From: Argopecten irradians
Taxonomy: Eukaryota; Mollusca; Bivalvia; Pectinida; Pectinidae
NCBI RefSeq assembly: GCF_041381155.1
Contig: NC_091138.1
Location: 17,609,255 to 17,673,254, forward strand
Reading direction: 5' to 3'
Length of the DNA stretch: 64,000 nt
Positions 6,129-62,900 of this stretch are shown here, one piece after another. How positions within the stretch are numbered: position 1 is the stretch's first letter; each line of letters opens with the position of its first letter. Below the pieces are notes generated by a model. The model was not told the origin of the DNA. It saw only the letters and a list, made by a program, of their open reading frames with translations, and did no database searches. Position numbers and translations under genes: made by a program.

Positions 6129-6334
6129 TTAGCTACACTGTAAACTTTTGAGTGTTAAGTTACACCAAAAAAGGTGGCACCATAGCTGCCTCCTTTTAAT
6201 TTAGGTGTAACGTTACACCAAATTTTTAGGTTACACAACTGGTGTAAAACCACTTCAAGTTAGGAGTTGGTGTAAAGTAACATCACTATGGTGTAAGGTT
6301 ACACTTTCAAGCTATGATTTGGTGTAAAGTAACA
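6129..6334. repeat. GGTGTAA/TTACACC palindromic array, left part
   Basis: Dense with GGTGTAA and its complement TTACACC, including the near-palindrome GGTGTAACGTTACACC. The same motif array continues at 8940-9235 on the far side of the younger LINE, so the two blocks look like one foldback-type element split by that LINE. No ORF. Confidence 0.75.
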
Positions 6335-9948: not shown

Positions 9949-12900
9949 ATGGACGTCACCACTGGACTTGTCTTTACCTTGGTGTTCCTGGTGGTCTATA
10001 AACTCTCCAGACGAGGACCCAAACGTAACCTGCCCCCATGTCCTCCATTCTGTCTGCCAGTAGTCGGTCATTTACCATTACTGGCCCAGCGAGACTTGCT
10101 GGAAACGTTTACCTTACAAAGACGGAAGCTGGGAGATATATACCGCCTAGAGATCGGAAGTACAACTGTTGTGGTTATCAGTAGCTACCGTCTCCTTCAC
10201 ACAGCCTTCGTCAAAAATGCAGACATCTTCTCTGATCGTCCTCATTCGATCTTCATGGAGTTATGTAAAGACAACGGTAGGTGACATGGAATTATGTAAA
10301 GACAACGGTAGATGACATGGAGTTATGTAAAGACAACGGTAGGTGACATGGAGCTATGTAAAGACAACGGTAGGTGACATGGAGTTATGTAAACACAACG
10401 GTAGGTGACATGGAGTTATGTAAAGACAACGGTAGGTGGTATGGAGTTATGGAAAGACAACGGTAGGTGACATGGAGTTATGTAAAGACAACGGTAGGTG
10501 GTATGGAATTATGTAAAGACAACGGTAGGTGACATGGATCTATGTAAAGACAACGGTAGGTGACATGGAGTTATGTAAACACAACGGTAGGTGACATGGA
10601 GCTATGTAAAGACAACGGTAGGTGACATGGAGTTATGTAAACACAACGGTAGGTGACATGGAGTTATGTAAACACAACGGTAGGTGGTATGGAGCTATGT
10701 AAAGACAACGGTAGGTGACATGGAGTTATGTAAAGACAACGGTAGGTGACATGGAGCTATGTAAAGACAACGGTAGGTGGTATGGAGTTATGTAAACACA
10801 ACGGTAGGTGACATGGAGTTATGTAAAAACAACGGTAGATGACATGGAGCTATGTAAAGACAACGGTAGGTGACATGGAGCTATGTAAAGACAACGGTAG
10901 GTGGTATGGAGTTATGTAAACACAACGGTAGGTGACATGGAGTTATGTAAAAACAACGGTAGATGACATGGAGCTATGTAAAGACAACGGTAGGTGACGT
11001 GGAGTTATGTCAAGACAACGGTAGGTGGTATGGAGCTATGTAAAGACAACGGTAGGTGACATGGAGTTATGTAAAGACAACGGTAGGTGACATGGAGCTA
11101 TGTAAAGACAACGGTAGGTGGTATGGAGTTATGTAAACACAACGGTAGGTGACATGGAGTTATGTAAAAACAACGGTAGATGACATGGAGCTATGTAAAG
11201 ACAACGGTAGGTGACATGGAGCTATGTAAAGACAACGGTAGGTGACATGGAGTTATGTAAAGACAACGGTAGGTGACATGGAGCTATGTAAAGACAACGG
11301 TAGGTGGTATGGAATTATGTAAAGACAACGGTAGGTGACATGGAGTTATGTAAAGACAACGGTAGGTGACATGGAGTTATGTAAAGACAACGGTAGGTGG
11401 TATGGAGTTATGTAAACACAACGGTAGGTGACATGGAGCTATGTATATGTAAAGACAACGTAAGGTGACATGGAGTTATGTAAAGACAACGGTAGGTGGT
11501 ATGGAGTTATGTAAAGACAACGGTAGGTGACATGGAGTTATGTAAAGACAACGGTAGGTGACATGAAGTTTATTTTATTTTTAGATACGTACAAATGACA
11601 TTTTCATTTCGAAGTTTACCTAGTGGTTAACTTTTACACTACCCAAACGTACCATTCATACATAACATGCCTTGTTCCGTTGCGATTGTGGTCAGTACCA
11701 TACATATATGATGTAAGTATTGATCTATGCTGTTGACAAGAGAACGGACCATGTACAGGGTGTTTACGACCAAATATCGATTCTAGTGAACATGGTTATT
11801 CAACTACTGACCTCCGGTCTCATCGTTTGTCGCTTGATTAAGACATCTCTAAATTGTTTAGGCCAGTCTAGTTGACACTTAGACGGATGTGGTAATGAGT
11901 CCATGTCCTCTGCATGACACTGTCACTAATCTAAACCATTGAGATCAACAGTTACAGTAACGGGAGTTTTACATCTAAATTTCATATTCGACAACCTTAA
12001 GGAGCGTATACTGTTTGAATTAAGAAAATACCTCATTTTTCTTCCTTGATATTACTTACGATGATAGTAGGGGCCCTGACTTAGAACCTCTAACATTGTT
12101 GAAGTGTTAGTACCTTGATATATGTATATTTCCGAAGGTTATTTTTTCTTTAGGAAATCATGGAATTGGAAAAATACAGCAAATGCCCTCTTGGGGAAGG
12201 GGACCAAACAGTCCCAGATGTACATTACAAAGTCACTGCCTTCAGTGATCCTCGTACAGTTCAATTGTATTGTCCCAAACGAGAACTTATATACACTAAT
12301 TTATTGCTGTTTTTGTAAATGAAACCAATAAACAATGTACGACGACAGCATTAATGTAAAACGGTTTGTTCATGTTGATTTAGTTCTGTGTGTACGCTAC
12401 AATTATATGGCAAAACAAAGCGCAGAACTCTAGGAGAAAAGGTAGAAACTGTCGATGTCAAAACAATGGTATCATCATAATCGCCACTGGGGCTAATTTC
12501 TTTATTTTTAATTTATTGCTTTCAGTCATAGCTTCTTGGTCATTATTTTCAGGTATAATTCTACTAAATGGTCCCAAATGGAAAGCACAACGACAGACAA
12601 TTTTGAAAAACTTCAGATACTTTTGTTCAAGAACAACAATATTGGAGGCGATTATTCATAAACAGATACATCGTTTACGTGACGGCATTGATGCAGTAGA
12701 TGGCCAGGCGATAGACCCTACACAACTTCTGAACGAAGCTATTTCCAGCGTGGTGGGAGAGGTCACCATTGGCCAGGTAGCAGATACGAATTCAGACGAA
12801 TTCAAAACTTTTGTCAATGACAACAATAATATAGTTCATGCTACAGCAAAAGCAGTCATTATGGACTTTCTACCATTCCTTCGACACTTGCCCATAGATC

Positions 12901-23337: not shown

Positions 23338-25189
23338 AACAAGAGGCCCAGACGGCCTGTATCGCTCACCTGGTTTTTTGTTAGTAATTATCACAATACT
23401 CTGACAAAATAAGCAAAATTGACTCCCAAAGTTTAATTTTGAATCACAACCATACAATGATGCTATTGATACCATACAAATATGCTATCCAATACATAGG
23501 TTCAGAGACAAAGTAATTTATATGAAAATAGTAGCCTAATTGACCTTTTTGACCTCGCATCTATTGCCGTTTAAGGCCCCGGGGGTCAGCCCTATCATTT
23601 GTACAATTTCAAATCCCAACCCTATTAGGATGCTACCATTGCATTATAAGTGCTCTTCCATTCTTAGTTGCAGAGAAGAAGTCGTTTATATAAAAATAGC
23701 CAAATTGACCCCTTTTGACCCCACCCTTCAGGCCCCCGGGGGGTCAGCCCCATCATTTGCAAAATTTTGAATCCAAACCCTATAAGGATGTAACCATTGC
23801 ATTATGAGCGCAATCCCATGTTATGTTGCAGAGAAAAAGTCATTTATATGGAAATTGACCACTTTTGACCCCGCCCCTCAGGGCCCCCGGGGGGTCAGCC
23901 CCATCATTTGTACAATTTGGAATCCCCACCCTATAAGGATGCTACCATTGCATAATGGGTGCTATACCATGCTTAGTTGCAGAGAAGAAGTCATTTATAT
24001 GAAAATAGCCAAATTAACCCCTTTTGACCCCGCCCCTCAGGCCCCCGGGGGGTCAGCCCTATCATTTGCACAATTTTGAATCCCCAGCCTACAAGGATGC
24101 TACCATTGCATTATGGGTGCTATACCATGCTTAGTTTCAGAGAAGAAGTTGTTTATATGGAAATAGCCAAATTGACCCCTTTTGACCCCGCCCCTCAGGC
24201 CCCCCGGGGGGTCAGCCCCATCATTTGCACAATTTGGAATCCCCACCCTATAAGGATGCTACCATTGCATAATGGGTGCTATACCATGCTTAGTTGCAGA
24301 GAAGAAGTCATTTATATGAAAATAGCCAAATTAACCCCTTTTGACCCCGCCCCTCAGGCCCCTGGGGGGTCAGCCCTATCATTTGCATAATTTTGAATCC
24401 CCATCCTATAAGCATGCTACCATTGCATTATGGGTGCTATACCATGCTTAGTTTCAGAGAAGTCGTTTATACGGAAATAGCCAAATTGGCCCCTTTTGAC
24501 CCCGCCCCCCAGGCCCCCGGGGGGTCAGCCCCATTATTTGTACAATTTTGAATCCCCACCCTATATGGATGCTACCATTGCATTATGGGTGCTATCCCAT
24601 GCTTGGTTTCAGAGAAGAAGTCATTTATACGGAAATAGCCAAATTGACCCCGCCCCTCAGGCCCCCCGGGGGTCAGCCCCATCATTTGTACAATTTTGAA
24701 TCCCCACCCTATAACGATACTACAATTGCATTATGAATGCTATCTCATGCTTAGTTTCAGAGAAGAAGTCGTTTATATGGAAATAGCCAAATTGACCCCA
24801 TTTAACCCCGCCCCTCAGGCCCCCGGGGGGTCAGCCCCATCATTTGTACAATTTTGAATCCCCACCCTATAAGGATGCTACCATTGCATTATGGGTGCTA
24901 TCCCATGCTTGGTTTCAGAGAAGAAGTCGTTTATATGGAAATAGCCAAATTGACCTCTTTTGGACCCGCCCCTCAGGCCCCCTGGGGGTCAGCCCCATCA
25001 TTTGTACAATTTTCAGTTAGTAGCCCATAAGGATGCTACCAGTCAAATTTTGTTGAAATCCGACCAGCGGTTATGGAGAAGAAGTCGATTGTTGACGGAC
25101 GCCGGACGCCGGACGACAGACGACGGACGCCAGATGCTGCGGTATCCCATAAGCTCACCTCGGTCCTTTGGACCAGGTGAGCTAAAAAA
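23338..25189 (+). mobile_element. CAAGAGGCCC element E1 with ~150-170 bp tandem core
   Basis: The left end has the palindrome AGGCCCAGACGGCCT followed by CGCTCACCTGGT; the right end has AGCTCACC...GGACCAGGTGAGCTAAAAA, a terminal hairpin whose 3' arm is also complementary to the left CGCTCACCTGGT. Between them are ~10 tandem units, each containing TTGACCCC, CAGGCCCCCGGGGGGTCAGC and ATTGCATTATGGGTGCTAT. The element ends with a GACGGACGCC-rich stretch. No transposase; non-autonomous. The structure recalls bivalve pearl/Helentron-derived elements, which is inference. Very similar to E4 at 48552. Confidence 0.8.
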
Positions 25190-27804: not shown

Positions 27805-30800
27805 TTACAAAGAATTGTCATTCTCACTCACAGATCCATAAGTTCTTGCTGTAGTCCTTGGTTTATGTAAGGCACTATACGAATGTTTGGGCTCAAATAG
27901 TTGACTCATTGAGCGCTTGATCCCAGATACTATTGGATGTGGCTGATCCCTGTTCAAAGCTGGGTGGAAATCAAAGTCTGCTGTCTCCACATGAGGTTTT
28001 CTCTTGATTCGCACGACATATACCCCGGCCACAATCACAATCAATATACCAAGACATGTGAAGAATATTGGGATACCGTATCCATGGGAACTGTAGGAAT
28101 CTGAAAAATTCAAATAACATTTTTTACAGTTCTTCAATAATTCTGATATATCTACCTTACCTAATTAATTTTGATGCGTAAATTATACCAGTAAAGTATT
28201 TTTTTCAGCATTTTCAGCCCCAAAGTACCTACCAAAATTACACTAGTGCAAACTTTATATGAGTTTTTACGGTAATCATCTGTAATTTTTGTTGAAAGAA
28301 AACCTATATGACTTAACTTAACAGTACATTTACCTCATAAATCATTATTTGCTTGACATATAATTCATATATCCATTGACTTAATTCGAGATATCCCCTG
28401 CTGTAATTGGTGTGTCCTATACCTGGTTATAACTAGAATAATGATCCAAAAACCATTCCGTTATAATTGGATTCATACGATTATAAACCCAATTTGTTCT
28501 TTAGTTCTGACCAAATAATTGCTGGAGGCAGGATTGAACCTGTACAGCTGTATTGATTATGAGGTCACATATTACCATTGATGTAACAAAAGTTTTATAA
28601 CAAAGTGGCAGGCGACTAGTTCTCCCCAAGTACCAATTCTTGACAAACCATTTGTAGCTGTACGATTACTGTTCAAATTACGTCAATAAAGTCATCTACT
28701 GATAGAAGACACTAACATGTTGATTTCCAAAATAAATGACTGAAAATTTGTGTGTGATCATACAAGCACACATGCGATGGCCAGAATTGGTACTCAGCGA
28801 GAACTGATCGCCTGCCACTATCCCATTCCCATGTATCTATGAAATAGCCAGATACATGTATATGACATGACAGTTAACAGGCTACTTAAAGATGCTCCAC
28901 CGCTGACAAACGGTATTTTTTCACTATCAAAAACATTAGCAGACGATTTAGTATTTTTCTTCAGTTAAAAAAATTACTAACTTTACACCATTACCACCAT
29001 TGGAAAGTTTGAGCTTCTAATTTTACTTTAAGTTAAAAATATGAAAAATAATTAATTGCATCCCGAAAAAATTCCATGACACTATATCCTATATAGAATG
29101 AAATACTGATTGCGCATGCACCAAAGGCAAAATAAATTATTTTACTAAAAATTTTTGTGCTAATTAGACATATGTATACACGATTTAACACCAATTACTG
29201 TTAAAATGATGAATATCATTTATGCTCTGTAATGTACCTGAATCATACACGTGTACAATTTCTGTCCTGTAGTATTCTAGGCTAACATCATTCTCCATCT
29301 GGAAGCAAATGCGGTAGAGACCGACACTGGGGAAGCTCACCCGAACATCAAACTGCTTCCTGTTTCCTGTCATTGGATGCTCACATGTTTTGTTGCCGCA
29401 GTTACTTAAATTGGAGTGAGCCTTACATACTTCCCAGCAAATCACTGTAGGGTTACTGTGAATACAAAACAAAGTCAGCAAATCACTGGAGGGTTACTAT
29501 GGATAAAAAATTAAGTCAGGAAATCACTGGAGAGTTACTGTAGATACAAAATAAAGTCAGCAAATCACTGGAGGGTTACTGTGGATACAAAATTAAGTCA
29601 GCAAATCACTGGAGGGTTACTTTATATACAAAATAAAGTTAGCAGAACACTGTAGGGTTACTATGGATAAAAAATAAAGTCAGCAAATTACTGGAGGGTT
29701 ACTGTGGATACAAAATAAAGTCAGGAAAACACTGGAGGGTTACTTTATATACAAAATAAAGTTAGCAAATCACTGTAGGGTTACTATGGATACAAAAAAA
29801 TAAAGTCAGCATATCACTAGAGGGTTACTTTGTATACAAAATAAAGTCAGGAAATCACTGGAGGATTACTGTGGATAAAAAATAAAATAAGCATATCACT
29901 GGAGGGTTACTATGGATACAAAATAAAGTCAGGAAATCACTGGAGGGCTAATATGGATACAAAAATAAAATCAGCAAATTACTGGAGGGTTACTATGGAT
30001 ACAAAATAAAATCAGCAATTCACTGTTGGGTTACCATGTGTGCAAAATAAAATCAGCAAATTACTGAAGGGTTACTACGGATACAAAATAAAGTCAGCAA
30101 ATCACTGTATGGTTACTGTGGATACAAAATAAAGTCACCAAATCACTGGAGGGTTACTATGGATACAAAGTAAAGTCATGAAATCACTGGAGGGTTACTT
30201 TGGATACAAAATAAAGACAGCAAATTACTGGAGGGTTACTGTGGATACAAAATAAAATCAGCAAATCACTGGAGGGTTACTATATGAATACAAAATAAAA
30301 TCACCAAATCACTGGAGGGTTACTATGGATAAACAAGAGATCCCAGAGGGATCTTGGCGCCCACCAAAGAATGATCAATGTCTGACAATGGAAAGAGGGA
30401 TCTTTTCTCTGCTTTTCAAACTTTTGCAAACATACTACATATAAAATTTGAGACAGATCGCTTCAGTACTCTCTGAGAAACAGCAGTAACAAACTTTAAC
30501 TATCAAAATCCAAGATGGCTCCTTGGCAGCCATCTTGTCAATCGATCGGTCCCAAATCGAATTATGCACAACTAGGGCCCTAGGGGAACCTACATATGAA
30601 ATTTGAGACAGATTCATTCAATACTTTCTGAGAAATAGCGATAACAATCTTTAACTATTAAAATCCAAGATGGCAGCCTGGCGGCATTTTGTTGACCGAT
30701 CGATCCAAAAACGCATTATGCACAACTAGAGCCCTAGGGGAACCTACATATGAAATTTGAGAAAGATCCCTTTAGTACTTTGTGAGATATAGCGATAACA

Positions 30801-33800
30801 ATCTTTAACTATCAAAATCCAAGATGGCTGCCTGGCGGCCATCTTGTTGACCGATCGGTCCCAAAACGCAATATGCACAACTAGGGCCCTAGGGGAACCT
30901 ACATATGAAATTTGAGACAGATCCCTTAAGTACTTTCTGAGAAATAGCGATAACAAACTTTAAGTATCAAAACCCAAGATGGCTACCTGGCAACCATCTT
31001 GTTGACCGATTGGTCCCAAAATGCAATATGCACAACTAGGGCCCTAGGGGAACCTACATATGAAATGTGAGACAGATCCCTTCAGTACTTTCTGAGAAAT
31101 AGCGATAACAAGAATTGTAAACAGACGGACGGAGGGACGGACGAAAGGACGGACGACGGACCACAGACAAAAAGCGATTTGAATAGCCCACCATCTGATG
31201 ATGGTGGCATGGGCTAAAAATAAAGTCAGGAAATCACTGTAGGGTTACTGTGGATACAAAATAAAATCAGTAAATCACTGTAGGGTTACTATGAATACAA
31301 ATAAAGTCAGCAAATCACTTGATGCAATTTTGTAATATGTATTCAAAGATGGAATAAGACGTACAATAAAAACATTCCACTGACCTTGCCTGGTAATGAA
31401 CAGTGAAGTTCAAGAGTTTGTTGACATCCACAGAAGCATTTCCAGACATGTTCCATTTCACCCATCGTATTGCATCTGCAATGTATCACATTCAGAAACC
31501 TATGTATTTAATATTCATGTACTTTTTTAAGCTTTTTATAAACTCAAAATGCATGCAGGGCATATATGACAAATGAAGAAGCTGTTTTGAACAAGGGAAC
31601 ACATATTTAAAATAGTATTGTACCATTTGAGTATGCCACAAAATCAAACAATTTTGTATAGAAATGAAATAAAACAAAAGTATATGCTATGCAAACTACA
31701 AATGTATTCATATTTTCAGTCTCGGTATTTAATAAAAATTGTATTCAAGGTAAATGAACTTTGAGACTTCAAAATGGGGAGGGGGACTTATTGGGTTGAA
31801 TATATAAAATTAGGTTCCATCAACCTTTGAAGGATAACGCATGCTTTTATTTGTATTTAAAATGTATATTTTTGAGTGTAACTGGATGGACAAGTATTAC
31901 TACCTGTAATTGAATTATCAATACTGAACACAAGTTTTTGAAAATGACATTACATTTGCATAACAATAGTTTTACAAAAATATATTTGAAAATAAACTTA
32001 ACCTTGATGTTGGTACACAACATGAACCATGAACTTACTACTAAGGTAACTTGGGGAAAATGGGTCAGTGGTAATACATATATAGAAAATGTACACTGAT
32101 CCACTATACAGACAATAGCATAAAGTAAATATTACTGCAGGTTTATATACATGTGTATTCTCTCAATATAGAGTCATATCAAGGATATGATAACTATGTA
32201 CAGGATGGGCACAATACGGTTGTCCAGCACACATGTATATGATTGAATGTCTGACCCAGTGAATGATATAAAATCTCGGTCAGGGATACATGTAAAGGTA
32301 TTGACAGAGTTTTATCTGTGTGTTATCATTTATAACATTGTATTGACAGAGTTTTATCTGTGTGTTATCATTTATAACATTGTATTGACAGAGTTTTATC
32401 TGTGTGTTATCATTTATAACATTGTATTGACAGAGTTTTATCTGTGTGTTATCATTTATAACATTGTATTGACAGAGTTTTATCTGTGTGTGTTATCATT
32501 TATAACATTGTATTGACAGAGTTTTATCTGTGTGTTATCATTTATAACATTGTATTGACAGAGTTTTATCTGTGTGTTATCATTTATAACATTGTATTGA
32601 CAGAGTTTTATCTGTGTGTTATCATTTATAACATTGTATTGACAGAGTTTTATCTGTGTGTTATCATTTATAACATTGTATTGACAGAGTTTTATCTGTG
32701 TGTTATCATTTATAACATTGTTGGGAGATATTAGAGTGTTCAGTAATTTATCACGTTCACAAACAGCTGTGATATGGAGATATTAGAGTGTTCAGTAATA
32801 TATCATGTACATGCTGCTCTCCAACCTTTTGTCATGTTGTGAAAATACACACTGTTGTCCTTTAAGTCAAGTCATGATTGGACATAAATGTATTGATGAT
32901 TCAACCAAAAAAGATTGCTTATACACAAAAGTGTGAAATACGTCTGTATGATGTTATGTAATTTAAAATAAACAATGATTGTGCAGAAAATGTGATCTTT
33001 ACTCAGTCATGAGAGGGGTTATAAAACTCCAAAACAATACATCACCCATTGAGTGAATTACTGACAGTAAGAGGTACACAAAGTCCATCTCACATAATAA
33101 AAACTTGGAAATTACAAAAACACGTTTTACATGAATAAGATTTAAAATCGCTTTCCAAATTTAAATTCTGGTCTCTTAAAATAACATACAATTATCCATT
33201 GAGCTCTCATTAATTTTGAAGACTGCATAAACTTTCAAGCTAATAATACAAAACAGGCTGGAGATTCTGCATGAATTGTGAGCATTTGTCTGTATGTTCT
33301 CAGTGGTTAAGATGTACCGACATAATACCACATGCCCTCCACCTCTGGGTCGCGAGTTCGAATCCCATGTGGGGCAGTTACCAGGTACTGACCGCTGATC
33401 GGTGGTTTTTCTCCGGGTACTCCGGCTTTCCTCCACCAACAAACCTGGCACGTCCTTAAATGACCCTGGCTGATAATAGGACGTTAAACTAATCAAACCA
33501 AAACTGTATGTTCTATTAATGGACCTTGTTACCAAAAATTTTACAGAGTTCTGTGAATCACCTTTGAACTGCACCATTACCATCCTAGTAGTGTATCCTT
33601 CAATATTAACTTACCTTTCACTTGTAAATCTTCCGACCAATCTCCTTTCTTCACCAGGAAATCATCATCCAAGGATGTGATGACTGAGACAGACAATTTT
33701 TCCACTGTTTCTGGTTTCTTTAAAGTGAACATAAATTTCGGTTTTTTAGTTTCTCCCAACAACTTTTCCCCACTAAACCACTGGAAAGAGGATGTTGGTC

Positions 33801-44900: not shown

Positions 44901-47900
44901 GGTGGGCATCAGGTCTCGTAGGTCTTCAATGTTCACAGGCCTGTAAAGTAAAGTTAAGAAGTATTATGATTCAAACTACAGTAAAGCATGGCTATAACAA
45001 ACCTCTGGGGACCAACAAAACCAGTTTGTTATAAGCATAGTTTGTTATACATACAAATATTGCAAACATCATATAGTAATCTTGACGGGGAATGAAAAGT
45101 ACTGCAGTATAACCATGATTTTGTTGTAAGCATGGTAATTACATTTCACTGTAACTGTATGTAACTTTGTTAAGAATTTATAGTAACTAGAACCTATATA
45201 ATATGGAACCTGATTATACGGGTCACATATGTTAGTTCCAGTGATATCTGGTATAGTTCTGGGGATTCTAACTCGCAACCCCTCCACCTCTGGGTCACTA
45301 GTTTAAATCCTAAGTGAGGCAGTTGCCAGGTACTGATCACTGGTCAGTGGTTTTTCTCCAGGTACTCCTGCTTTTCTGGTATGCCTATAAATGACCACGG
45401 CTGTTAATAGGACGTTAAATTAATAAAACCCCAACACCTGTACCTTTTGAGGAGTTTTTTGTAGAGAGCTAGTGGGAAGTCCAACTGTATGATGGTAGAG
45501 TTGTAGATGGCGAGGCCGCACAGACATCCAATCATGTGGAACATATCAATGCCTTCAAAAGTCTTTCAACAACAAGAAAAAGCATTAATAGTCACGTAAG
45601 TTATGAAATACATAAAGATAATTGATTGATTCACGTCAGTCGAAATTTGAGTTTACTTGAAATTGATTTGTATATGAAAACATATACAATCAGTTCATGT
45701 TAGCATGTGCTAACCCAAACCTTCTTTCAATTTTTTATTTATCTACCAGGTATATTATTTTTAATTATTTGACTCTTGTAAATTTTAGATTAATTCATAT
45801 AGTCATTCAGCAAAGATTGATGCAGAAGTTTTCAAAAGTTTTTGACACGTTTTCATATACAATGTAATACATTTGACCTCTGTGATCCTAGTATGGTATT
45901 CATTTTAACAATTTTTGTAACCTTACATCCTACTTTATATTAGCTGACCCTATAATAAATGAGAAAATGTTGAAAATACAAATTGTTTTACGCAGCAAAA
46001 AGACACAGAGACATATGCAATTCCTTTTAACTTTGTACATACAACTCACCATAGGATTGAACCAGTACACACGAGATTCCTCGTAATATTTAAACATGCC
46101 ATACTTTGGGTCTAGTACTTCTCGGAGCAATAACATAAAGAATTCCTGCAACAAAGATATTTGTTATACATACAGAATAAAATCAAATGCATTTTCTCAA
46201 TGAAATTTGTAATCTGACATATCCCTAAAATGAATGCTTTAAATAAACTGCACGTTTGGAAATAAATTGAAATTTCGATAAATTCAAAATCATAAATGGT
46301 GTGTACTTTTATAAGTGTATATTATCTGTTTCTGTCATTCCTTATGAAAGATTGTGCGAAACAATGTGCAATATTTGGAAAGCTTTTGGTACATGGTATG
46401 AAGCAGTTTAAACGTGCCCCTTACATTTATGTCAGTAATTTCCATGCACACCATTTTGAAAATGAAGAACCAAAATATTCTAATTACAGTTGTGACATAT
46501 CTGACAAAGATTCATTAAAAAGGCAGTGTAAATATGTTATGTAATTTTATTTGGTGGTGAATGCAGAAATCTCAAAATGAGGATAAGCCAGCCTAATAGA
46601 AAAGCACATTTTGAATTACATGATAAAACTCATCAAATATATATCATGTCAACAACTTAATTCATAATGTATTGATTCTTTGATTTTTGAAAAAAAAATA
46701 TTGATGAACTCCAAAACTGATTTTCATAGATAACAATTAACAACCCTTGAAATGAATACATGATAGCAATATGTTGTGCACTTAGTCTTCTTTTTAGGTA
46801 ATACTTGTTTAAACTGAATTCATTACAAGCAGAAGTTATTGTAGATGCATTTCTACATAGAGAGTGCAGGTAAAACCAAACATCAATAACTCCATAAAAT
46901 GTATATGGTCCTTACTTGATAAAGTTATGGTCTTGAGGAGGAATGACAGTAAGACAATAGAAAACAGACTGGCCAAACTTAATTACCATAAAATAAAAAC
47001 TTTCAGTAAAGCTAGTCTATAAGCAATCAAACTGTAGTGTGATAGACATGATGGTGAACTATACAAAATTAGTTCCATAGAAAATGGGCAACAAGGATGG
47101 TGGTTATAGGATCAACTGTGTAATGGCTAAATAGAAAATAATGGAATAGTCATATTCAAATATATGTAACTTGTCAAGAAATTAATCCCAATTGTTACTT
47201 AATACAATTAATTATTATTATTTTTTTCAATATTTGTGCAGTTTCATTCATCTTCATTTGTTTAAGCATTGCTGTCACTATTTTTTAATTTCACAGTGGT
47301 ATGAAAAAATGTGTTTGCTGCTTGTGTGAATGTGCATAGCTGATTCTCACAGAGATCAATGTATTGTGGCATCACAATATTAAATGTCAGGTTTCATCAC
47401 CATTCTCGGATTTGGGGTACGAGGGAAAATTCAGCCAATCAAACAGTCAGATTTAGCATGAAAATAAATTATTATAAAATAAAGTTAGTAAAAGGATTTG
47501 TTGATAAGTTTGGAAGATCAGTTGTGTTAATTCATATGATATGTAAAACTTCTTGTAAATCAGAATGTAATAGTGTAAAAGTTAAACTAACAAGATCAGG
47601 ATTAGATTATAAGAGAATTATAAAATATGTAAAACAACCAACTTGACAGGATATAAACTTGTAAAAGTTTAATTAATAATTGAACTATTTTACTAAATTG
47701 GAGAAGTACAGATAAAATACATGAACTAACAGATCTGAGATGGCTACAGAACAATAGAGGCCCTAACACAGTTGTAGATATCATTGCTTTTCAACAAAGA
47801 ATCTATAGAGTGATCCTGATATCTACAGCTGTTGTTAGGACATCTGTAACACAGTAAACGCCCACCTTCTTGACACCACCCTCATCTATCGCCTCCTCCC

Positions 47901-50900
47901 CTACAAATATCACCTGTAAACAGAGCAAGCAAACGGTGTGTTAATCACACAGTACAGGGTTACCTTTCTGAGACCACCAGCATCAATGGCTTCTTCGCCC
48001 GCAAACATCACCTGTCGGCATACAACATCTGATACACTGATATACATATACTAAGTAATTGACAGTCAATTTTTTTTATAAATTTGTATGGCAAAGAATA
48101 AACATTTTCTTATTACATTAGAAATACATGTACAATGAACAGTCCCACTTGGCAATGTGTAACATGTGAAGGATCGCCATCTATCACAGTTTTTTAAAGA
48201 ACCTGGGCTCCCGCTACCCATTTGCATTTTCGTTAATAACGAATCAATCTGGCTAATTGATAAATTAATTAATCTCATTTTTCTTCAAACACCTGATATA
48301 TAATCACGTGGACACAAGTTTCAAACATAGTTTTTTCATAGCAAGTCTAAAACAGTTGATAAATTAATCAGTAACTATACCATATATATGTTTAATGTTA
48401 AAGGGATGTAAAGTAACAATACGCATGACAGAGTATGGTTTAATGAATGATCAGGATCTTTTGTATGTGTGTACTTTTCACTTGATGCATAAAAACATTA
48501 TTTGATGCTCCTTAGTAATTTAATGTTTTCAATTATGGATAATATTTGCTAAACAAGAGGCCCAGAGGGCCTGTATCGCTCACCTGGTTTTTTGTTAGTA
48601 ATTATCACAAGAATCTGACAATTAGAAAAATAAGCAAAATTGACTCCCAAAGTTTAATTTTGAATCACAACCATACAATGATGCTATTGATACCATACAA
48701 ATATGCTATCCAATACATAGGTTCAGAGACAAATAATTTATATGAAAATAGTAGCCTAATTGACCTTTTTGACCTCGCATCTATTGCCGTTTAAGGCCCC
48801 GGGGGTCAGCCCTATCATTTGTACAATTTCAAATCCCAACCCTATAAGGATGCTACCATTGCATTATAAGTGCTCTTCCATTCTTAGTTGCAGAGAAGAA
48901 GTCGTTTATATGGAAATAGCTAAATTGACCCCTTTTGACCCCACCCTTCAGGCTCCCAGGGGGGTCAGCCCAATCATTTGCAAAATTTTGAATCCAAACC
49001 CTATAAGGATATAACCATTGCATTATGAGCGCAATCCCATGTTAAGTTGCAGAGAAAAAGTCATTTATATGGAAATTGACCACTTTTGACCCCGCCCCTC
49101 AGGCCCCCGGGGGTCAGCCCTATCATTTGCTCAATTTGGAATCCCCACCCTACAAGGATGCTACCATTGCAAAATGGGTGCTATACCATGCTTAGTTGCA
49201 GAGAAGAAGTCATTTTTATGGAAATAGCCAAATTGACCCCTTTTGACCCCGCCCCTCAGGCCCCCGGGGGGTCAGCCCTATCATTTGCACAATTTTGAAT
49301 CCCCACCCTATAAGGATGCTACCATTGCATTATGGGTGCTATACCATACTTAGTTTCAGAGAAAAAGTCGTTTATATGGAAATAGCCAAATTGGCCCCTT
49401 TTGACCCCGCCCCTCAGGCCCCCGGGGGGTCAGCCCCATTATTTGTACAATTTTGAATCCCCACCCTATAAGGATGATATCATTGCATTATTGGTGCTAT
49501 CCCATGCTTGGTTTCAGAGAAGAAGTTGTTTATATGGAAATAGCCAAATTGACCCCTTTTGACCCTGCCCCTCAGCCCCCCCCCCGGGAGTCAGCCCCAT
49601 CATTTGTACAATTTTGAATCCCCACCCTATAACGATACTACAATTGCATTATGAGTGCTATCTCATGCTTAATTTCAAAGAAGAAGTTGTTTATATGGAA
49701 ATAGCCAAATTGACCCCATTTGACCCCGCCCTCAGGCCCCCGGGGGGTCAGCCCCTTCATTTGTATAATTTTGAATCCCCACCCTATAAGGATGCTACCA
49801 TTGCATTATGGGTGCTATCCCATGCTTGGTTTCAGAGAAGTCGTTTATATGGAAATAGCCAAATTGACCCCTTTTGACCCCGCCCCTCAGGTCCCCGGGG
49901 AGGTCAGCCCTATCATTTGCACAATTTAGAATCCCCACCCTATAAGGATGCTACCATTGCATTATGGGTGCTATACCATACTCAGTTTCAGAGAAGAAGT
50001 CGTTTATATGGAAATAGCCAAATTGGCCCCTTTTGATCCTGCCCCTCAGGCCCCCGGGGGGTCAGCCCCATTATTTGTACAATTTTGAATCCCCACCCTA
50101 TAAGGATGATATCATTGCATTATGGGTGCTATCTCATGCTTGGTTTCAGAGAAGAAGTCGTTTATATGGAAATAGCCAAATTGACCCCTTTTGACCCCGC
50201 CCCTCAGGCCCCCCCCCCCCCCCCCCCCCCCCCCGGGAGTCAGCCCCATCATTTGTACAATTTTGAATCCTCACCCTATAACGATACTATACTTGCATTA
50301 TGAAAGCTATCTCATGCTTAGTTTCAGAGAAGAAGTCGTTTATATGGAAATAGCCAAATTGACCCCGCCCCTCAGGCCCCCGGGGGGTCAGCCCCATCAT
50401 TTGTACAATTTTGAATCCCCACCCTAAAAGGATGCTACCATTGCATTATGGGTGCTATCCCATGCTTGGTTTCAGAGAAGAAGTCGTTTATATGGAAATA
50501 GCCAAATTGACCCCTTTTGGCCCCGCCCCTCAGGCCCCCGGGGGGTCAGCCCCATCATTTGTACAATTTTCAGTTAGTAGCCCATCAGGATGCTACCAGT
50601 CAAATTTTATTGAAAATACGACCAGCGGTTATGGAGAAGAAGTCGATTGTTGACGGACGCCGGACGTCGGACGTTGGACCAGGTGAGCTAATAAAATTCT
50701 TATTTGCTAAAGAGAAAAAAATTACTTTCGCCACTTTTGCCAAGCAATCTGGAAAATTAGTGTGAGCCCAGAGAACTTTCACATAGTAATGCAAAACGAG
50801 TTTTCCAAAAAGAATGATATACATGTGAACTACTAAAAGATAATGCAAAGGTCCTGAAACTTGAAAATCATATGGAATATAAATCTGTATCATTTTGATG

Positions 50901-53900: not shown

Positions 53901-56900
53901 TAGACAAACAGGTATCATATCAATATAGATTCCATGTTTCTACAGAGTAAATGTATTGAAATACATGTATATATACAATCAAATTATTGCTCTCATCACC
54001 TGACTTGATAACTTCAAAACTATCAAAACTTCTCAATAATAGCGTGATTGCATTTTCAGATATTATTTTGTATAAAAACCACATGTTTTGCAATTGGGGT
54101 ACCATTTTTTCCGGACAATAAGCCGCACCTGTGTATAAGCCGCAGAGGCCTTTTTTACGATTTTTTCAAGTTTTGTACACGTATAAGACGCACCGTTATA
54201 TAAGCCACACCCAAAAGTTAGGCCCATGCACCTATGCAACCATCTGTGTATACGATCAATCTCTTATGAAGTACGGTAATGCTTATCGATCGATTAGAAT
54301 CACGAAAATTGTCTGTAAACTTGTACTGTAAATATATAACAAATAAAACTCACTATGATGTAAACATCTTTAGAACAATGAATTTGGTCATGTCTCTGTT
54401 CATTGTTTACTCACGTTAGCCTACTTATGTGTAAACAAACATGGTGACCCTACGAATTCATGCTTACTCTCTCTCATAATTCAGCATGCCTGTTAAAATA
54501 CTTTCTTCAGTATGGATATGGGTTTATTTTATCTCTATTTTGATAGGATTCCGAGAAATACACATGTTGACCATGTGTAACATGTGTGCAAGTTAGCAGT
54601 AATTTAGAATATCCTTTACTTGCTGCCTGCGGACATTTCTAGCACACACATAACATTTGACTTTCTAGTTATTATTTTCTTGTAACATCCTGCAGCAAAT
54701 CGATTTTTTGATGTGACTGTAAACAACCACGCTTCAGTCGGCCAATTTACCATGAATTAAACAATTTTACGATTGAACATGTATCTGGTACGTTATTATT
54801 TTCACCTTTATTATATTTTCATCACATATTATATCGTTTCAACACTTCTACAGTGATTTATACGGAAAATACGGTAAGTTGTTTTTTACTATCAGGTAGG
54901 TTCTTTTTGGCTACTAACAGAACTCTTCTAAATGGTAACAATTGAAGTTTATTTTGCAAAGATACTCTTCCAAATAAAGATATCATTTTGATAGAGAACA
55001 CAGAAGTTAAATTGCTCAACATAAAATTAAAATATGTTCAGCCAAGTCGAGTAGTCATATACCATATGCTTACCTCATTTTCTGAAGTGGTGGTTTGTAG
55101 TTGTAGAATGTAAATAACAACTTGCTTGTAAATCTACAATGTAATGGAGGAACAAAGACAAGCATTAGTCTTACAACCATTGACAAGTGCAATTGAGTTA
55201 AATATGAGAGATGAATAAAATTATCAACAACATGGATTTTGATATGCCATTACATCACCATTGGCCATTGTTATTAGGCATTTTAAAAGCAAATAATCTG
55301 TCTTAAGTCCAAGTACAGAATACATACATGTGTACTCGGCATACTTACGTTCACACATGTACTATGTACTTTTTAGAAAAAGTGCCACTGAGGCAGAGTG
55401 GTTAGAAAATGTTCAGACATATTACCACAAACTTTCCACCTCAGGTTCGAATCCTGTATGGGGCACTTGTCAGGTACTGGCCATAAGATGGTGTTTTTTC
55501 TGCAAGTACTCTGTTTTTCCTCCACACCCTAAAGCTGACACACTCTTAAATGACCCTTGTTTCTAATTGAATGTTTACCAAACCAAACACAAATATTTAT
55601 GATAAGAGGCCAAAGAGTGCTATGATTATAGCCTTGGTCCTGTAGTATATTAGGAACTAAATTGGGAAAAGAAGATGATACTCACATACACAACTTTACT
55701 GAAAAAGGAATTCTTTAATCTTGACCACCATATATCTGTAAAATGAACATGTCTGGTGTAAAATAGCTTTATACCATGATGTCATTTAGCATCATGTACA
55801 ATATCAACTCATCATGTACTTACAAAAAATACTTTATACATGTACTTAAATTGAATTTATAACCCTTGAATAATTAATCTTCATCCCATTATAAATGATG
55901 CATTTATTCTTTTAAAACAGTAACACAACCCAGATTGATATATACCTGCATAATTTAAAATAACTTACCTCAATCTGAACTTGAAAACACAATAAATTAA
56001 TTTGTTCTCCTACTATGAAAAATGATATCAACAAGATGAAGAAGATATGGAAATCAACTTAATCATCTCAAGCCTCAAATGGCCTTTCTATGAAAAACAA
56101 TATTCCATCTATCTTTGCCTTAATAACATTTACATTTCACTTACCTAAAACCTTTGATGCTGCCTTATCTAGACTAATTATACACTTTCCAAAAGGTACA
56201 ATAAGTGTCAAATAGTGTTTTGGCTGATCAAACAGGTGGAATTCTGCCAGAATTAGGTAGAGCCGTAGAGCTTCCACATCTGGTGGGGACGGAGGTAATG
56301 ATGTCAGCAATCTGGTTATAGCTAGGGTTATCTAAAATGTAAGGGGAGATAATCTGGTTAAAGCTAGGATTATCTACAACATAAGGGGACATAACCTGGT
56401 TATAGCTAAGGTTATCTACAACAAAACGGTGACAATCTAGTTACAGCTAGGGTTATCCAAAGGGTGACAATCTGGTTAAAGCTAGGATTATCTACAATGT
56501 AAAGGGAGATAATTTGGTTAAAGCTCGGGTTATCTATAAAGTAAGAGGAGATAATCTGGTTAAAGCTAGGGTGTCCTAGAATGTAAGGGGAGATAATCTG
56601 GTTATAGCTAGGGTGACCTACAATGTAAGGGGAGAATATTTGGTTATAGCTAGGGTTATCTACAACGTAAAGGGAGACAATCTAGTTATAGCTAGGGTTA
56701 TCGACAATGTAAAGGGAGACAATCTAGTTATAGCTAGGGTTATCTACAACATCATGAGAAGTAGATAGACATGAGATCACAGAGGGATCTTTGCGCCCAC
56801 CAAAGCATGATCTATGTTTGACAATAAAGAGGGATCTTTTCTCTGCTTTTCAAACTTTTACTACATAGGAAATTTGAGAAAGATCCTTTCAGTACTTTCT

Positions 56901-59900
56901 GAGGTATATAACAGTAACAAACTTCAATTATCAAAATCCAAGATGGCTATCCAAAATGGCTATCTGTCAGCCATCTTGTTCACCAATTGGTCCAAAAATA
57001 AAATATTCACATCTACGGCCCTAAAGGAACCCACATTTGAAATTTGAGGAGGATCCCTTTATTACTTTCTGAGAAATAGCGGTAACAAACTTCAATTGTG
57101 ATAATCCAAGATGGCCTCCTGTCTGCCATCTTATTCAACGACTGGTACCAAAATGCAATATGAACAACTAGGGACCGAGAGGGACCTGCACATGAAATTT
57201 GAGACAGATCCCTTCATTTCTTTCTGAGAAATAGCTGTAACAAACTTCAATTGACAAAATCCAAGATGGCGGCCTCTCAGCCATCTTGCTGACTGATCTG
57301 TCCCAAAATGCGATATGCACAACTAGGGACCGAGGGGGGACCTGCACATGAAATTTGAGACAGATCCATTCATTTCTTTCTCAAAAATAGCGGTAACAAA
57401 CTTCAATTGACAAAATCCAAGATGGCAGTCTCTCAGCCATCTTGTTGACTGATCGGTCTCAAAATGTGATATGCACGACTAGGGACCTAGGGGTACATAC
57501 ATGTTAAATTTGAGAAGGATCCCTTCTGCACTTTCTGAGAAAAAGTGGTAACAAACTTCTCAATTGTCAAAATCCAAGATGGCTACCTGTCGGCCATCTT
57601 GTTGACCGATCTGTCCAAAAATGCAATATGCACAACTAGGGCCCCAGGAAAACCTACATATGAAATTTAAGAAAGATCCGTTCTGCCCTTTCTGGGAAAT
57701 AGAGATAACAAGAAATGTTAATGGACGGACGGATGACGAACGAAAGGCAATTTGAATATCTGCTGATGGTGGGCTAAAAATACTGTAATATGTACATGGA
57801 GAAAAGAAATATGTACCAATTCCTGTAGCGACACTGTACCGTACATTTATACAGAGCACATCAATATGAAGTTAAGAAAACTCTCTGATCTTATAAATTT
57901 GTAACAGATAACCATAACAATTTTGTTATGTATTTTGTTACCTCTATTGTAACAGATAACCATAGTAATTTTGTTATGTATTTTGTCACCTCTATTGTAA
58001 CAGATAACCATAGTAATTTTGTTATGTATTTTTGTTACCTCTATTGTAACAGATAACCATAGTAATTTTGTTATGTATTTTGTCACCTCTATTGTAACAG
58101 ATAACCATAGTAATTTTGTTTTGTATTTTGTTACCTCTATTGTAACAGATAACCATAGTAATTTTGTTTTGTATTTTTGTTACCTCTATTGTAACAGATA
58201 ACCATAGTAATTTTGTTATGTATTTTGTTACCTCTATTGTAACAGATAACCATAGTAATTTTGTTATGTATTTTGTCACCTCTATTGTAACAGATAACCA
58301 TAGTAATTTTGTTATGTATTTTTGTTACCTCTATTGTAACAGATAACCATAGCAATTTTGTTATGTATTTTGTCACCTCTATTGTAACAGATAACCATAG
58401 TAATTTTGTTATGTATTTTGTTACCTCTATTGTAACAGATAACCATAGTAATTTTGTTATGTATTTTTGTTACTCTATTGTAACAGATAACCATAGTAAT
58501 TTTGTTTTGTATTTTGTCACCTCTATTGTAACAGATAACCATAGTAATTTTGTTATGTATTTTGTTACCTCTATTGTAACAGATAACCATAGTAATTTTG
58601 TTATGTATTTTTGTTACCTCTATTGTAACAGATAACCATAGTAATTTTGTTATGTATTTTGTCACCTCTATTGTAACAGATAACCATAGTAATTTTGTTA
58701 TGTATTTTGTCACCTCTATTGTAACAGATAACCATAGTAATTTTGTTATGTTTTTTGTCACCTCTATTGTAACAGATAACCATAGTAATTTTGTTATGTA
58801 TTTTTGTTACCTCTATTGTAACAGATAACCATAGTAATTTTGTTATGTATTTTGTCACCTCTATTGTAACAGATAACCATAGTAATTTTGTTATGTATTT
58901 TGTACCTCTATTGTAACAGATTATTGTTATGTATTATTGTATTTTGTCACCTCTATTGTAACAGATAACCATAGTAATTTTGTTTGTATTTTGCACTCTA
59001 TTGTAACAGATAACCATACAATTTTGTTATGTATTTTTGTTACCTCTATTGTTAACAGATAACCATAGTAATTTTGTTTTGTATTTTTGTTTCCTCTATT
59101 GTAACAGATAACCATAGTAATTTTGTTATGTATTTTTGTTACCTCTATTGTAACAGATAACCATAGTAATTTTGTTTTGTATTTTTGTTTCCTCTATTGT
59201 AACAGATAACCATAGCAATTTTGTTATGTATTTTTGTTACCTCTATTGTAACAGATAACCATAGTAATTTTGTTTTGTATTTTTGTTACCTCTATTGTAA
59301 CAGATAACCATAGTAATTTTGTTTTGTATTTTTGTTTCCTCTATTGTAACAGATAACCATAGTAATTTTGTTATGTATTTTGTCACCTCTATTGTAACAG
59401 ATAACCATAGTAATTTTGTTATGTATTTTGTTACCTCTATTGTAACAGATAACCATAGTAATTTTGTTATGTATTTTGTCACCTCTATTGTAACAGATAA
59501 CCATAGTAATTTTGTTATGTATTTTGTCACCTCTATTGTAACAGATAACCATAGTAATTTTGTTATGTATTTTGTCACCTCTATTGTAACAGATAACCAT
59601 AGTAATTTTGTTTTGTATTTTTGTTTCCTCTATTGTAACAGATAACCATAGCAATTTTGTTATGTATTTTTGTTACCTCTATTGTAACAGATAACCATAG
59701 TAATTTTGTTTTGTATTTTTGTTTCCTCTATTGTAACAGATAACCATAGTAATTTTGTTTTGTATTTTTGTTTCCTCTATTGTAACAGATAACCATAGCA
59801 ATTTTGTTATGTATTTTTGTTACCTCTATTGTAACAGATAACCATAGCAATTTTGTTATGTATTTTTGTTACCTCTATTGTAACAGATAACCATAGTAAT

Positions 59901-62900
59901 TTTGTTATGTATTTTGTCACCTCTATTGTAACAGATAACCATAGTAATTTTGTTATGTATTTTGTCACCTCTATTGTAACAGATAACCATAGCAATTTTG
60001 TTATGTATTTTTGTTACCTCTATTGTAACAGATAACCATAGCAATTTTGTTATGTATTTTTGTTACCTCTATTGTAACAGATAACCATAGTAATTTTGTT
60101 ATGTATTTTGTCACCTCTATTGTAACAGATAACCATAGTAATTTTGTTATGTATTTTGTTACCTCTATTGTAACAGATAACCATAGTAATTTTGTTATGT
60201 ATTTTGTCACCTCTATTGTAACAGATAACCATAGTAATTTTGTTATGTATTTTGTCACCTCTATTGTAACAGATAACCATAGTAATTTTGTTATGTATTT
60301 TGTCACCTCTATTGTAACAGATAACCATAGTAATTTTGTTTTGTATTTTTGTTTCCTCTATTGTAACAGATAACCATAGCAATTTTGTTATGTATTTTTG
60401 TTACCTCTATTGTAACAGATAACCATAGTAATTTTGTTTTGTATTTTTGTTTCCTCTATTGTAACAGATAACCATAGTAATTTTGTTTTGTATTTTTGTT
60501 TCCTCTATTGTAACAGATAACCATAGCAATTTTGTTATGTATTTTTGTTACCTCTATTGTAACAGATAACCATAGCAATTTTGTTATGTATTTTTGTTAC
60601 CTCTATTGTAACAGATAACCATAGTAATTTTGTTATGTATTTTGTCACCTCTATTGTAACAGATAACCATAGTAATTTTGTTATGTATTTTGTCACCTCT
60701 ATTGTAACAGATAACCATAGCAATTTTGTTATGTATTTTTGTTACCTCTATTGTAACAGATAACCATAGCAATTTTGTTATGAATTTTTGTTACCTCTAT
60801 TGTAACAGATAACCATAGCAATTTTGTTATATATGGTTTGTTATCTATGGGAAAAGTTAAAAGAGGATTCTTTACCTTGTAAAAGGTATCCATCTTGTTC
60901 TAATAGTAAATTGTAACCACAGGGGGTTATCTTTACAACAGGAAACCACAAACAAATCACATCTTTGTATAAGGTTACCACATGATCATATGATTTATAT
61001 TCATGTTAACAGGCAACCATAGCCAGAACAATACTATAGTTACAGTAGAATGAATATACGTACCCGGCCTACTTATACTTATCAGCCGGGTACGAATTGG
61101 TCCCTAGTGTCGTAGTGGAGCACTGCCTCCGAAATCACTCGAGCACAGTTTTCTATACTTTTTTGTAGGTTTCCAATTATTTTATGCGTATACATGCATT
61201 TACATATTATTTTCGTCCAAAACAAACATAACTACCATTCTTAATACCTACAGTACCGCTCACACGGCTTTGTGGACTTGCCGTATAAATTCCTTTCTTA
61301 AAGACCTTCATATGTATTATGTAAAAAAAATAATGCCTCGATGAGAATCTGATATTTCATGTGGTTCAGTTTTATTGTCTAGTAGGTAAGCAATATCAAA
61401 CAAGTACGATGAAATGCAAAGAAACGTTTAATAATGGTTTGCATAGTCATTACTTTGCTCCATTAGCAGTAATAGGCACCAATTGTAGCTCTAAAGACAA
61501 CACCATTTTCTGTTTAAAAGTCTTTTGAGCTACAATATTGCAGCTATAGTTACAGATGTTACCTTCTGTATCACAGTTGTATTTTTGGACATTCCAAGTT
61601 TATGCATACACTCCCTGACCAGTGTCATGTCCAGTCCAGGATTCTTACTGCTACAGCCGTAGTGGTGAGGTCTGAAAAACATCACAATGTAAAACAGACA
61701 CATACTGATACAGCAGTGACAAACACTGAACACACAGCCATAATATTGGGCTCTAAAGAATATAGACCAATGCAAAGATACCGGGTAGGTCTACAGACAT
61801 TTCTCAAGTATAAACAGTTATTAGTATGTCTCAAGATGTTCTGATTCATAGCCAAACGTCATATTGAGGTGGCTGAACAAAGAGTTGTTACATCTTGTAT
61901 CTGAGTGTATCGTAAAGCATGTGGAGTGGAATTACAAGTGTAATTTTAATTGAATTGAGACATTTCAGTACAAGATACTCATATAAAGTTAATAGGCATG
62001 TAAAAGAGTATAGCTACATCTACATTTCCTTTCTGTTGAAGTAATTTTCAACATATACCCAAACTTAACTGAACTGGTATTTGCACCCACACTTAACTGA
62101 ACTAGTATTTGCACCCAAACTTAACTGAACTAGTATTTGCACCCAAACTTAACTGAACTAGTATTTGCACCCAAACTTAACCAAACTAGTATTTGCGATG
62201 ATGAAAATAAAGAAAGTCATACTCACTCTAATAGGAATGATGCATTTAAACAAGATGCTGTAGAAAACACTTTCTCCACTTCACTGAATTTAAGATAATG
62301 GGAAATAGAATTACAAATCATTCTACTTTAATGATCTTCACAATTATGGTCTGAGAGCGATTATTATATAATAATGAAGATTATGCAGTATAATGTGTCT
62401 AACCGGCTCTTGTCTAATCTGGATACCTGCGTATTGCATCATAATTATTTGGCATTTTCCTTCTCAATCTATAGTAGTCTTAATTAAAATTTGTATAATC
62501 CTGCAACATATGCTGGTCCCTGTAATATTTGGTCAAGACAAGTTACATTGTATAACAAAATTAATTCAAGATGGGTTAAATGTTTAAGATTTTGCCTGAT
62601 ATTCAACCAATCTTCAAAACTACATCTATACATTCTGGAGCATAACACACATTACCTACATGTATTTTCACTGAAGGTTTATATCATTGTTAAAACTCCA
62701 ATCTTCCAGAAAGGAACATAAATCTGAAGTGTAATGTATAGTGTTGGGAATCGGTTGAAATTTCATGGTCAATCATCAGTTTTATTTAATCAATAAATGA
62801 TTAATTAAAATTGATTATTTTTCCTTGATGTATACCGGTAAACAAGTCTCATATAAAAATTTCCTTCAAAGGCTTACGATCGCGAGGCCTCTCTGTACTG

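Follow-up and report, generated by a model that had tools for sequence, protein, structure and literature searches.

Tandem repeats lying across exon–intron boundaries are known from amphioxus, where they are called mirages and, in the portions of the reports consulted, leave regular splicing undisturbed (PMC3087553, PMC3902484). The genes named there are Adh3, the globins BflGb6 and BflGb9, troponin C, and PGBD5, with units that range from 10–72 bp (Adh3) up to 150–160 bp (PMC3087553, PMC3902484). One of these accounts, as excerpted, suggests mirages as a route to new introns (PMC3087553), and they have been described as possibly a more general lancelet phenomenon.

Related structures occur in human genes. 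In IFI6 (6-16, G1P3), a minisatellite with a donor site in its units lies at the end of an exon, and downstream units serve as donors according to the relevant excerpt (PMC4526556). Excerpts on human segmental duplications describe internal tandem repeats at exon–intron boundaries and 27 intron modifications (PMC2812944). The AGGT model, as summarized in its sources, derives intron gain from tandem genomic duplication with splice-site sequence (PMC3443670, PMC2891723).

Here we describe such arrays in the bay scallop Argopecten irradians, in a 64-kb stretch of DNA (the window; C5:17609255-17673254 of an 845.8-Mb assembly). As the initial annotation stated, every gene in the window has one array that carries a splice junction: the HERC4 array an acceptor, the P450 array a donor, and the TMEM130-like array an acceptor. 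We consider it probable that the arrays are mirages: ordinary minisatellites that began with a duplication which chanced to cover a junction. Like the amphioxus repeats as excerpted, they are minisatellite-like, occur at donors and acceptors, and repeat AG/GT signals in many copies. They also show the mirage features of a boundary-spanning unit (23, 23, and 21 exonic nt plus intron) and of AG/GT in many but not all copies. Mirages are further marked by length instability, among alleles or in somatic tissue. The differences are the bivalve host, the 11 to 42 copies per array, and the estimate of a rate per exon edge given below.

The other systems compare less closely. IFI6 and the scallop P450 share a minisatellite at an exon end with donor-bearing units; IFI6, as excerpted, uses inner units as donors, whereas scallop databank proteins show no use of inner copies. 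A 1995 paper by Turri et al. reportedly, by its title, concerns an IFI6 minisatellite with multiple splice donors. The segmental-duplication repeats resemble the scallop arrays in being of minisatellite size, lying at boundaries, and changing gene structure (PMC2812944), but their excerpted description presents them as differences between recent paralogues that can form novel introns, whereas in the scallop the one gene examined has an old intron. The AGGT model, as excerpted, starts from an exon-only segment and yields a new intron; the scallop unit, by contrast, includes intron, and paralogues of the P450 have its intron too. Among the matches listed from the open-licence literature, none was a mollusc case of boundary-spanning minisatellites. 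What is new here is the mollusc host, from another phylum, together with a frequency estimate; the kind itself was already known.

Results

Gene models and array structure

Three genes were modelled in the window, giving 55 splice junctions:

Plus strand: P450, CYP2-like; 4 coding exons
Minus strand: TMEM130-like membrane protein; 6 exons (name taken from P0224)
Minus strand: HERC4, C-terminal part; 20 exons, including two alternatives

Databank proteins match the models. All 661 of 661 HERC4 residues, translated with one of the two alternative 48-nt exons omitted, are found identical inside P0001, a 1051-aa protein from a 5338-nt contig; the P450 model is identical over 482/482 aa within P0121, an Argopecten irradians protein; and the TMEM130-like model agrees with P0222, from a 2188-nt contig, at 469/473 aa. 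HERC4 spans about 22 kb in the window. Since the contigs of P0001 and P0222 are far shorter than the gene spans here, both are spliced transcripts.

Two alternative HERC4 exons of 48 nt each lie in tandem, 50 nt apart:

47866-47913, minus strand: alternative HERC4 exon
47964-48011, minus strand: alternative HERC4 exon

Both code for alternative forms of one HECT segment. Transcript P0001 carries the first form and Mizuhopecten P0003 the second, and the two exons are probably mutually exclusive.

At the HERC4 acceptor, the array with a unit of about 42 bp that had been annotated over the splice site and the exon start is recovered by TRF, with 11 copies and 23 exonic nt:

56309-56749, minus strand: HERC4 junction-spanning array (TRF: period 42, 10.7 copies)
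56145..56331, minus strand: HERC4 coding exon, acceptor in use (model and P0001 identical over 661 aa)
61563..61671, minus strand: preceding HERC4 exon, ending ...VIQK, phase 0

Read on the coding strand, the unit consists of a polypyrimidine tract, the TAG acceptor, and ATAACCCTAGCTATAACCAGATT, with which the exon begins (23 nt). This exon-edge 23-mer recurs in 11 in-register copies on the minus strand with 0–4 mismatches each; their first exonic bases run from 56743 to 56331 in plus coordinates, and the last copy, which is the first 23 nt of the exon (56309-56331), runs on into it. Because the preceding donor is in phase 0 and the reading frame is given, the acceptor is CATTTTAG followed by exonic ATAACC, with exon base 1 at 56331. 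The intron, 56332-61562, holds 155-bp and 48-bp arrays as well.

A 40-bp array on C11 (L002:1461-1861, G000 C11) shares part of the HERC4 unit, including the acceptor region (GTTATCTAMAATGTAA.GGGGAGATAAT), in two matches of 73% and 77% identity. The dispersed motif GGGAGATAA was considered as a common seed and set aside: apart from arrays, the window has 1 copy of it, and the scattered loci (200 kb) have 4.

The P450 array lies on the donor side of its intron:

9949..10276, plus strand: P450 exon 1 (model and P0121 identical over 482 aa)
10254..11570, plus strand: P450 junction-spanning array (31-bp unit, 42 copies)

Its unit is the last 23 nt of exon 1 followed by GTAGGTGA. The donor is at 10276/10277, with 23 exonic nt in the array, and the exon after the array starts at 12553 in phase 1.

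The TMEM130-like array is again at an acceptor and is split in two:

29238..29455, minus strand: TMEM130-like exon 5, which opens with the last array copy (21 nt; P0222, 469/473 aa)
29435..30331, minus strand: TMEM130-like junction-spanning array (41-bp unit, 22 copies)
31217..31319, minus strand: outer part of the same 41-bp array

The unit comprises the acceptor and the first 21 nt of exon 5; exon base 1 is 29455, and the exonic part of the array is 21 nt. The outer part is severed by sequence with a 155-bp repeat (30435-31111). The remaining window arrays lie elsewhere, as annotated: 5 of the 8 minisatellites (period 20–100, at least 5 copies) contain no exonic base.

Decoy sites and regular splicing

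The arrays place many candidate splice sites beside the one in use. AG is kept in 8/10 upstream HERC4 copies. An acceptor matrix built from 26 other junctions of the window gives the used HERC4 site a score of 3.9 and the eight upstream copies above the listing threshold scores of 2.1–7.7; the used acceptor is thus not singled out by sequence strength. The P450 array contains 41 donors by pattern, 37 of them with the 9-mer of the used site (the used donor being counted in both figures), and the TMEM130-like array contains 21 decoy acceptors by pattern.

Use of these decoys would end the reading frame early in all three window genes. By translation, the upstream HERC4 acceptors would lead to a stop at codon 13–28 past the junction (10/10), and the TMEM130-like decoys to one at codon 8 (19 sites) or codon 19 (2 sites). 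Each downstream P450 donor meets a stop at codon 112 because a TGA lies directly past the used donor, as displayed by the seven printed decoys (copies 2–5 and 39–41).

Databank proteins matching the three models—proteins, not RNA reads—all use the exon-contiguous splice site, so that regular splicing is kept, though minor isoforms may exist besides. No array-derived residues occur in the databank proteins examined for the three genes, a set selected for full length that degraded transcripts would escape.

These stops and the 37 identical P450 donor 9-mers would suit a regulatory device in which dozens of decoys divert part of the transcripts to premature stops or to variants, expression being tuned by the length of the array, and the excerpted IFI6 account, in which repeat units act as alternative donors, offers a precedent (PMC4526556). 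The lack of array-derived residues in the databank proteins of the three genes argues against such a device, as do two arrays from the exon-edge sample below, L089 and L101, whose decoys would yield no stops; we regard it as very improbable. As read here, the L089 unit (60 bp) and the L101 unit (54 bp) both keep the frame and lack a stop, and premature stops are therefore not a general safeguard. L101 itself (G000 C16:3233421-3233970) is a myosin donor array whose 54-bp unit is open in frame; its inner donors, if used, would insert 18-residue repeats instead of a stop.

Exon copies and the age of the introns

The splice site in use has itself become an array copy. Judged from sequence comparison, the exon is likely the source and the array the derivative. 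The exon-edge peptide of the TMEM130-like gene, (S) + 10 residues, is conserved in 3/3 other scallop orthologues (Pecten, Mizuhopecten, and Ylistrum), and the P450 edge peptide CKDNG in 2/2 other scallops (Ylistrum and Mizuhopecten). The HERC4 edge ITLAITRLL is found in Ylistrum too, with one residue just beyond it different, whereas Mizuhopecten P0003 has VNKEIFISLLL at this place and other molluscs have ITxSIExx or similar. By these peptides, exon-edge conservation is weaker for HERC4 than for the P450 and TMEM130-like genes. These comparisons support the suggestion that an intact exon copy is kept, with HERC4 agreeing in Ylistrum and differing in Mizuhopecten. P0003 departs after VIQK, exactly at the array-covered exon edge, through true divergence or a mispredicted acceptor.

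Paralogues bear on the age of the P450 intron. In the paralogous exons L044-L057, the acceptor is at the same place and in phase 1 in 14/14 sampled, and in the 10 that are printed far enough to show a conserved tryptophan it precedes this residue by 8–9 codons. No arrays of period at least 20 were found in L044-L057 within the ~220 nt before the exon, which covers the acceptor side of the intron only. Because acceptor and phase are common to all 14 on this sampled side, the P450 intron is very probably older than the array. In human CYP2D6, too, an intron lies at the homologous glycine. L028, a paralogue of L031 (the fourth case, described below), has the same acceptor without an array.

The initial annotation had allowed for intron gain: an exon segment duplicated in tandem would have provided the splice sites, leaving the arrays as traces. 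Such a route was put forward for amphioxus mirages in the text excerpted (PMC3087553), and exon-segment duplications do occur here: L100 (G000 C1:42670854-42671424) carries, within coding sequence, a tandem duplication of 118 bp of a myosin exon. Since 118 bp is not a multiple of three, either one L100 copy has to be left out or the gene is defective. Against intron gain, the array units hold intron as well as exon sequence, L028 has its acceptor without the array of L031, and the P450 acceptor is shared in place and phase by all the paralogues sampled, unless all share a hidden donor-side array. For P450, the one gene where the claim was assessed, intron position and phase common to 14/14 sampled paralogues make this origin unlikely; as an account of the arrays in general, we hold it to be extremely unlikely.

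Frequency at exon edges

To compare the window with the genome, minisatellites (period 20–100, at least 5 copies) were recorded in 20 scattered loci of 10 kb, taken at round coordinates on 12 contigs and not as a random draw. They make up 23% of these 200 kb (18 arrays) vs. 17% of the window.

Exon edges were sampled from two families: 57 P450 exons, used out of 100 matches, in 40 loci (44.2 kb), and 75 exons of the myosin head, used out of 82 matches, in 60 loci (44.8 kb). Together they give 264 edges, a denominator that is an upper bound because the sampled edges are ends of profile matches and not always true junctions. Some matches contain stop codons and were kept. An array was counted at an edge where it covered at least 15 intronic nt and 5–60 exonic nt. 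Excluded were arrays ending in the intron near an exon (e.g., L081, L113, L065, and L063), the exon-only duplication of L100, and the 36-bp array of L020, which lies beside a possible coding stretch. The latter (L020:1802-5408) has 100 copies and runs on in frame from that possible acidic coding stretch.

Edge arrays were present at 5, 4, and 3 of the 264 edges at thresholds of at least 2.0, 2.5, and 3.0 copies. At 2.0 copies they comprise 1/114 P450 edges and 4/150 myosin edges, a rate with a 95% interval of 0.6–4.4%. The five cases, L031, L073, L089, L101, and L102, contain about 24, 10, 19, 39, and 13 exonic nt. At 2.5 copies, array ends fall in the intron flank at 7/264 edges (175-nt zone) vs. 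4 in the 56-nt exonic zone. The initial annotation had described the pattern as locus-wide; because the same structure is present on other chromosomes, that is the wrong frame.

Two controls give different expectations. From merged array ends, a control that may underestimate, 2.51, 1.85, and 1.55 events are expected among 264 edges at 2.0, 2.5, and 3.0 copies. From 6000 matched points, 5.41, 4.36, and 3.83 are expected, probably an overestimate since the matched control works in 400-nt cuts that break long arrays; at 2.5 copies, 62/99 of its events come from 3/20 loci (locus bootstrap 0.7–2.9%). The sample yields P values of 0.11 (5 events, 2.0 copies) and 0.12 (4 events, 2.5 copies) with the merged-end control and 0.63, 0.64, and 0.74 at the three thresholds with the matched control.

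In the window, 3 of the 55 junctions carry an array against 0.32–1.13 expected. The corresponding P values at 2.0, 2.5, and 3.0 copies are 0.016, 0.007, and 0.004 (merged-end) and 0.10, 0.063, and 0.046 (matched), an excess that is borderline and post hoc. Window and sample compare with Fisher P values of 0.14, 0.10, and 0.066, and together they give 8/319 at 2.0 copies (P 0.013 merged-end or 0.33 matched). That three of three genes would be hard to dismiss as chance, as first proposed, is not borne out by the small independent sample, with 5 events vs. 2.5 or 5.4 expected at the same threshold. A placement model confined to the window's own arrays, with 15–30 exonic nt counted, had given P values of 2.5e-5 to 3.8e-4 and was replaced by the genome controls; free array placement ignoring exons gives P 0.65 for the window.

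If junctions were preferred birthplaces of minisatellites, through duplication linked to transcription, R-loops, or repair, overlap should exceed chance. The merged-end control points this way in the window (P 0.004–0.016), in the sample (5/264 vs. 2.51), and jointly; the matched control, which expects 1.13 and 5.41, does not, and the sample alone is significant with neither control at 2.0 copies (0.11 or 0.63) or 2.5 copies (0.12 or 0.64). Nor do the exonic parts—23, 21, 23, 24, about 10, 19, 39, and 13 nt—indicate any fixed position, being variable. We judge a preferred birthplace unlikely. A constant exonic part of 21–24 nt, seen in the first four cases (23, 21, 23, and 24), had been entertained as a clue to mechanism and was dropped when the next cases gave about 10, 19, 39, and 13. 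Enrichment over chance is possible, with any excess about twofold and not significant in the independent sample.

Discussion

We therefore favor, as the probable account, ordinary minisatellites founded across a junction by chance. Array ends fall on roughly 1–2% of exon edges because A. irradians is rich in minisatellites. A founding duplication across the junction could arise by slippage or repair. Where the unit includes the splice site, extra copies would fall on the intron side and be removed with the intron, and as they leave with it, the array can expand like any intronic one, presumably by the usual minisatellite turnover. Coding selection would hold the exon-attached copy only. Databank proteins and two assembled transcripts suggest that the exon-contiguous site is chosen though most decoys are its equal by sequence; likely reasons are exon definition and the degradation of mis-spliced transcripts. 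A moderate preference for junctions is possible on top of this account, given the 3 window cases vs. 0.32–1.13 expected and the joint P of 0.013 or 0.33.

The bivalve cases (5/264 and 3/55) suggest that mirages may be a general by-product of a high minisatellite load. These cases show that dozens of almost identical sites next to the genuine splice site can be tolerated, which bears on splice-site choice, intron growth, and the annotation of repeat-rich genomes. A farther-reaching version, which we consider doubtful, would make junction-spanning arrays a pervasive trait of a mollusc genome rich in minisatellites, almost neutral and perhaps enriched twofold, with working splice sites continually replaced by array copies and decoys feeding the growth of introns, novel isoforms, and a tuning of expression by array length. 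If it were true, 1–2% of exon edges would amount to very many genes.

Possible mobile elements

Sequences at 30340-31210 and about 56760-57711 have 155-bp internal repeats and a similar end, AAGATCCCTCTGxGATCTC, which is found also upstream of the P450 exon in L056. This sequence interrupts the TMEM130-like array and directly adjoins the HERC4 array; it is possibly a mobile element landing in or beside such arrays. The segments 23449-25041 and 48670-50570 have in common a 22-bp direct repeat and, after it, a tandem array of 158 bp (CCCCGGGGGGTCAGCC...); they are probably copies of one dispersed element. Long open frames at about 800-1174, 4985-6027, and 6333-8606, the last of 758 aa with a YLDLSKAFDRVPHG motif, presumably resemble parts of LINE-type reverse transcriptases.
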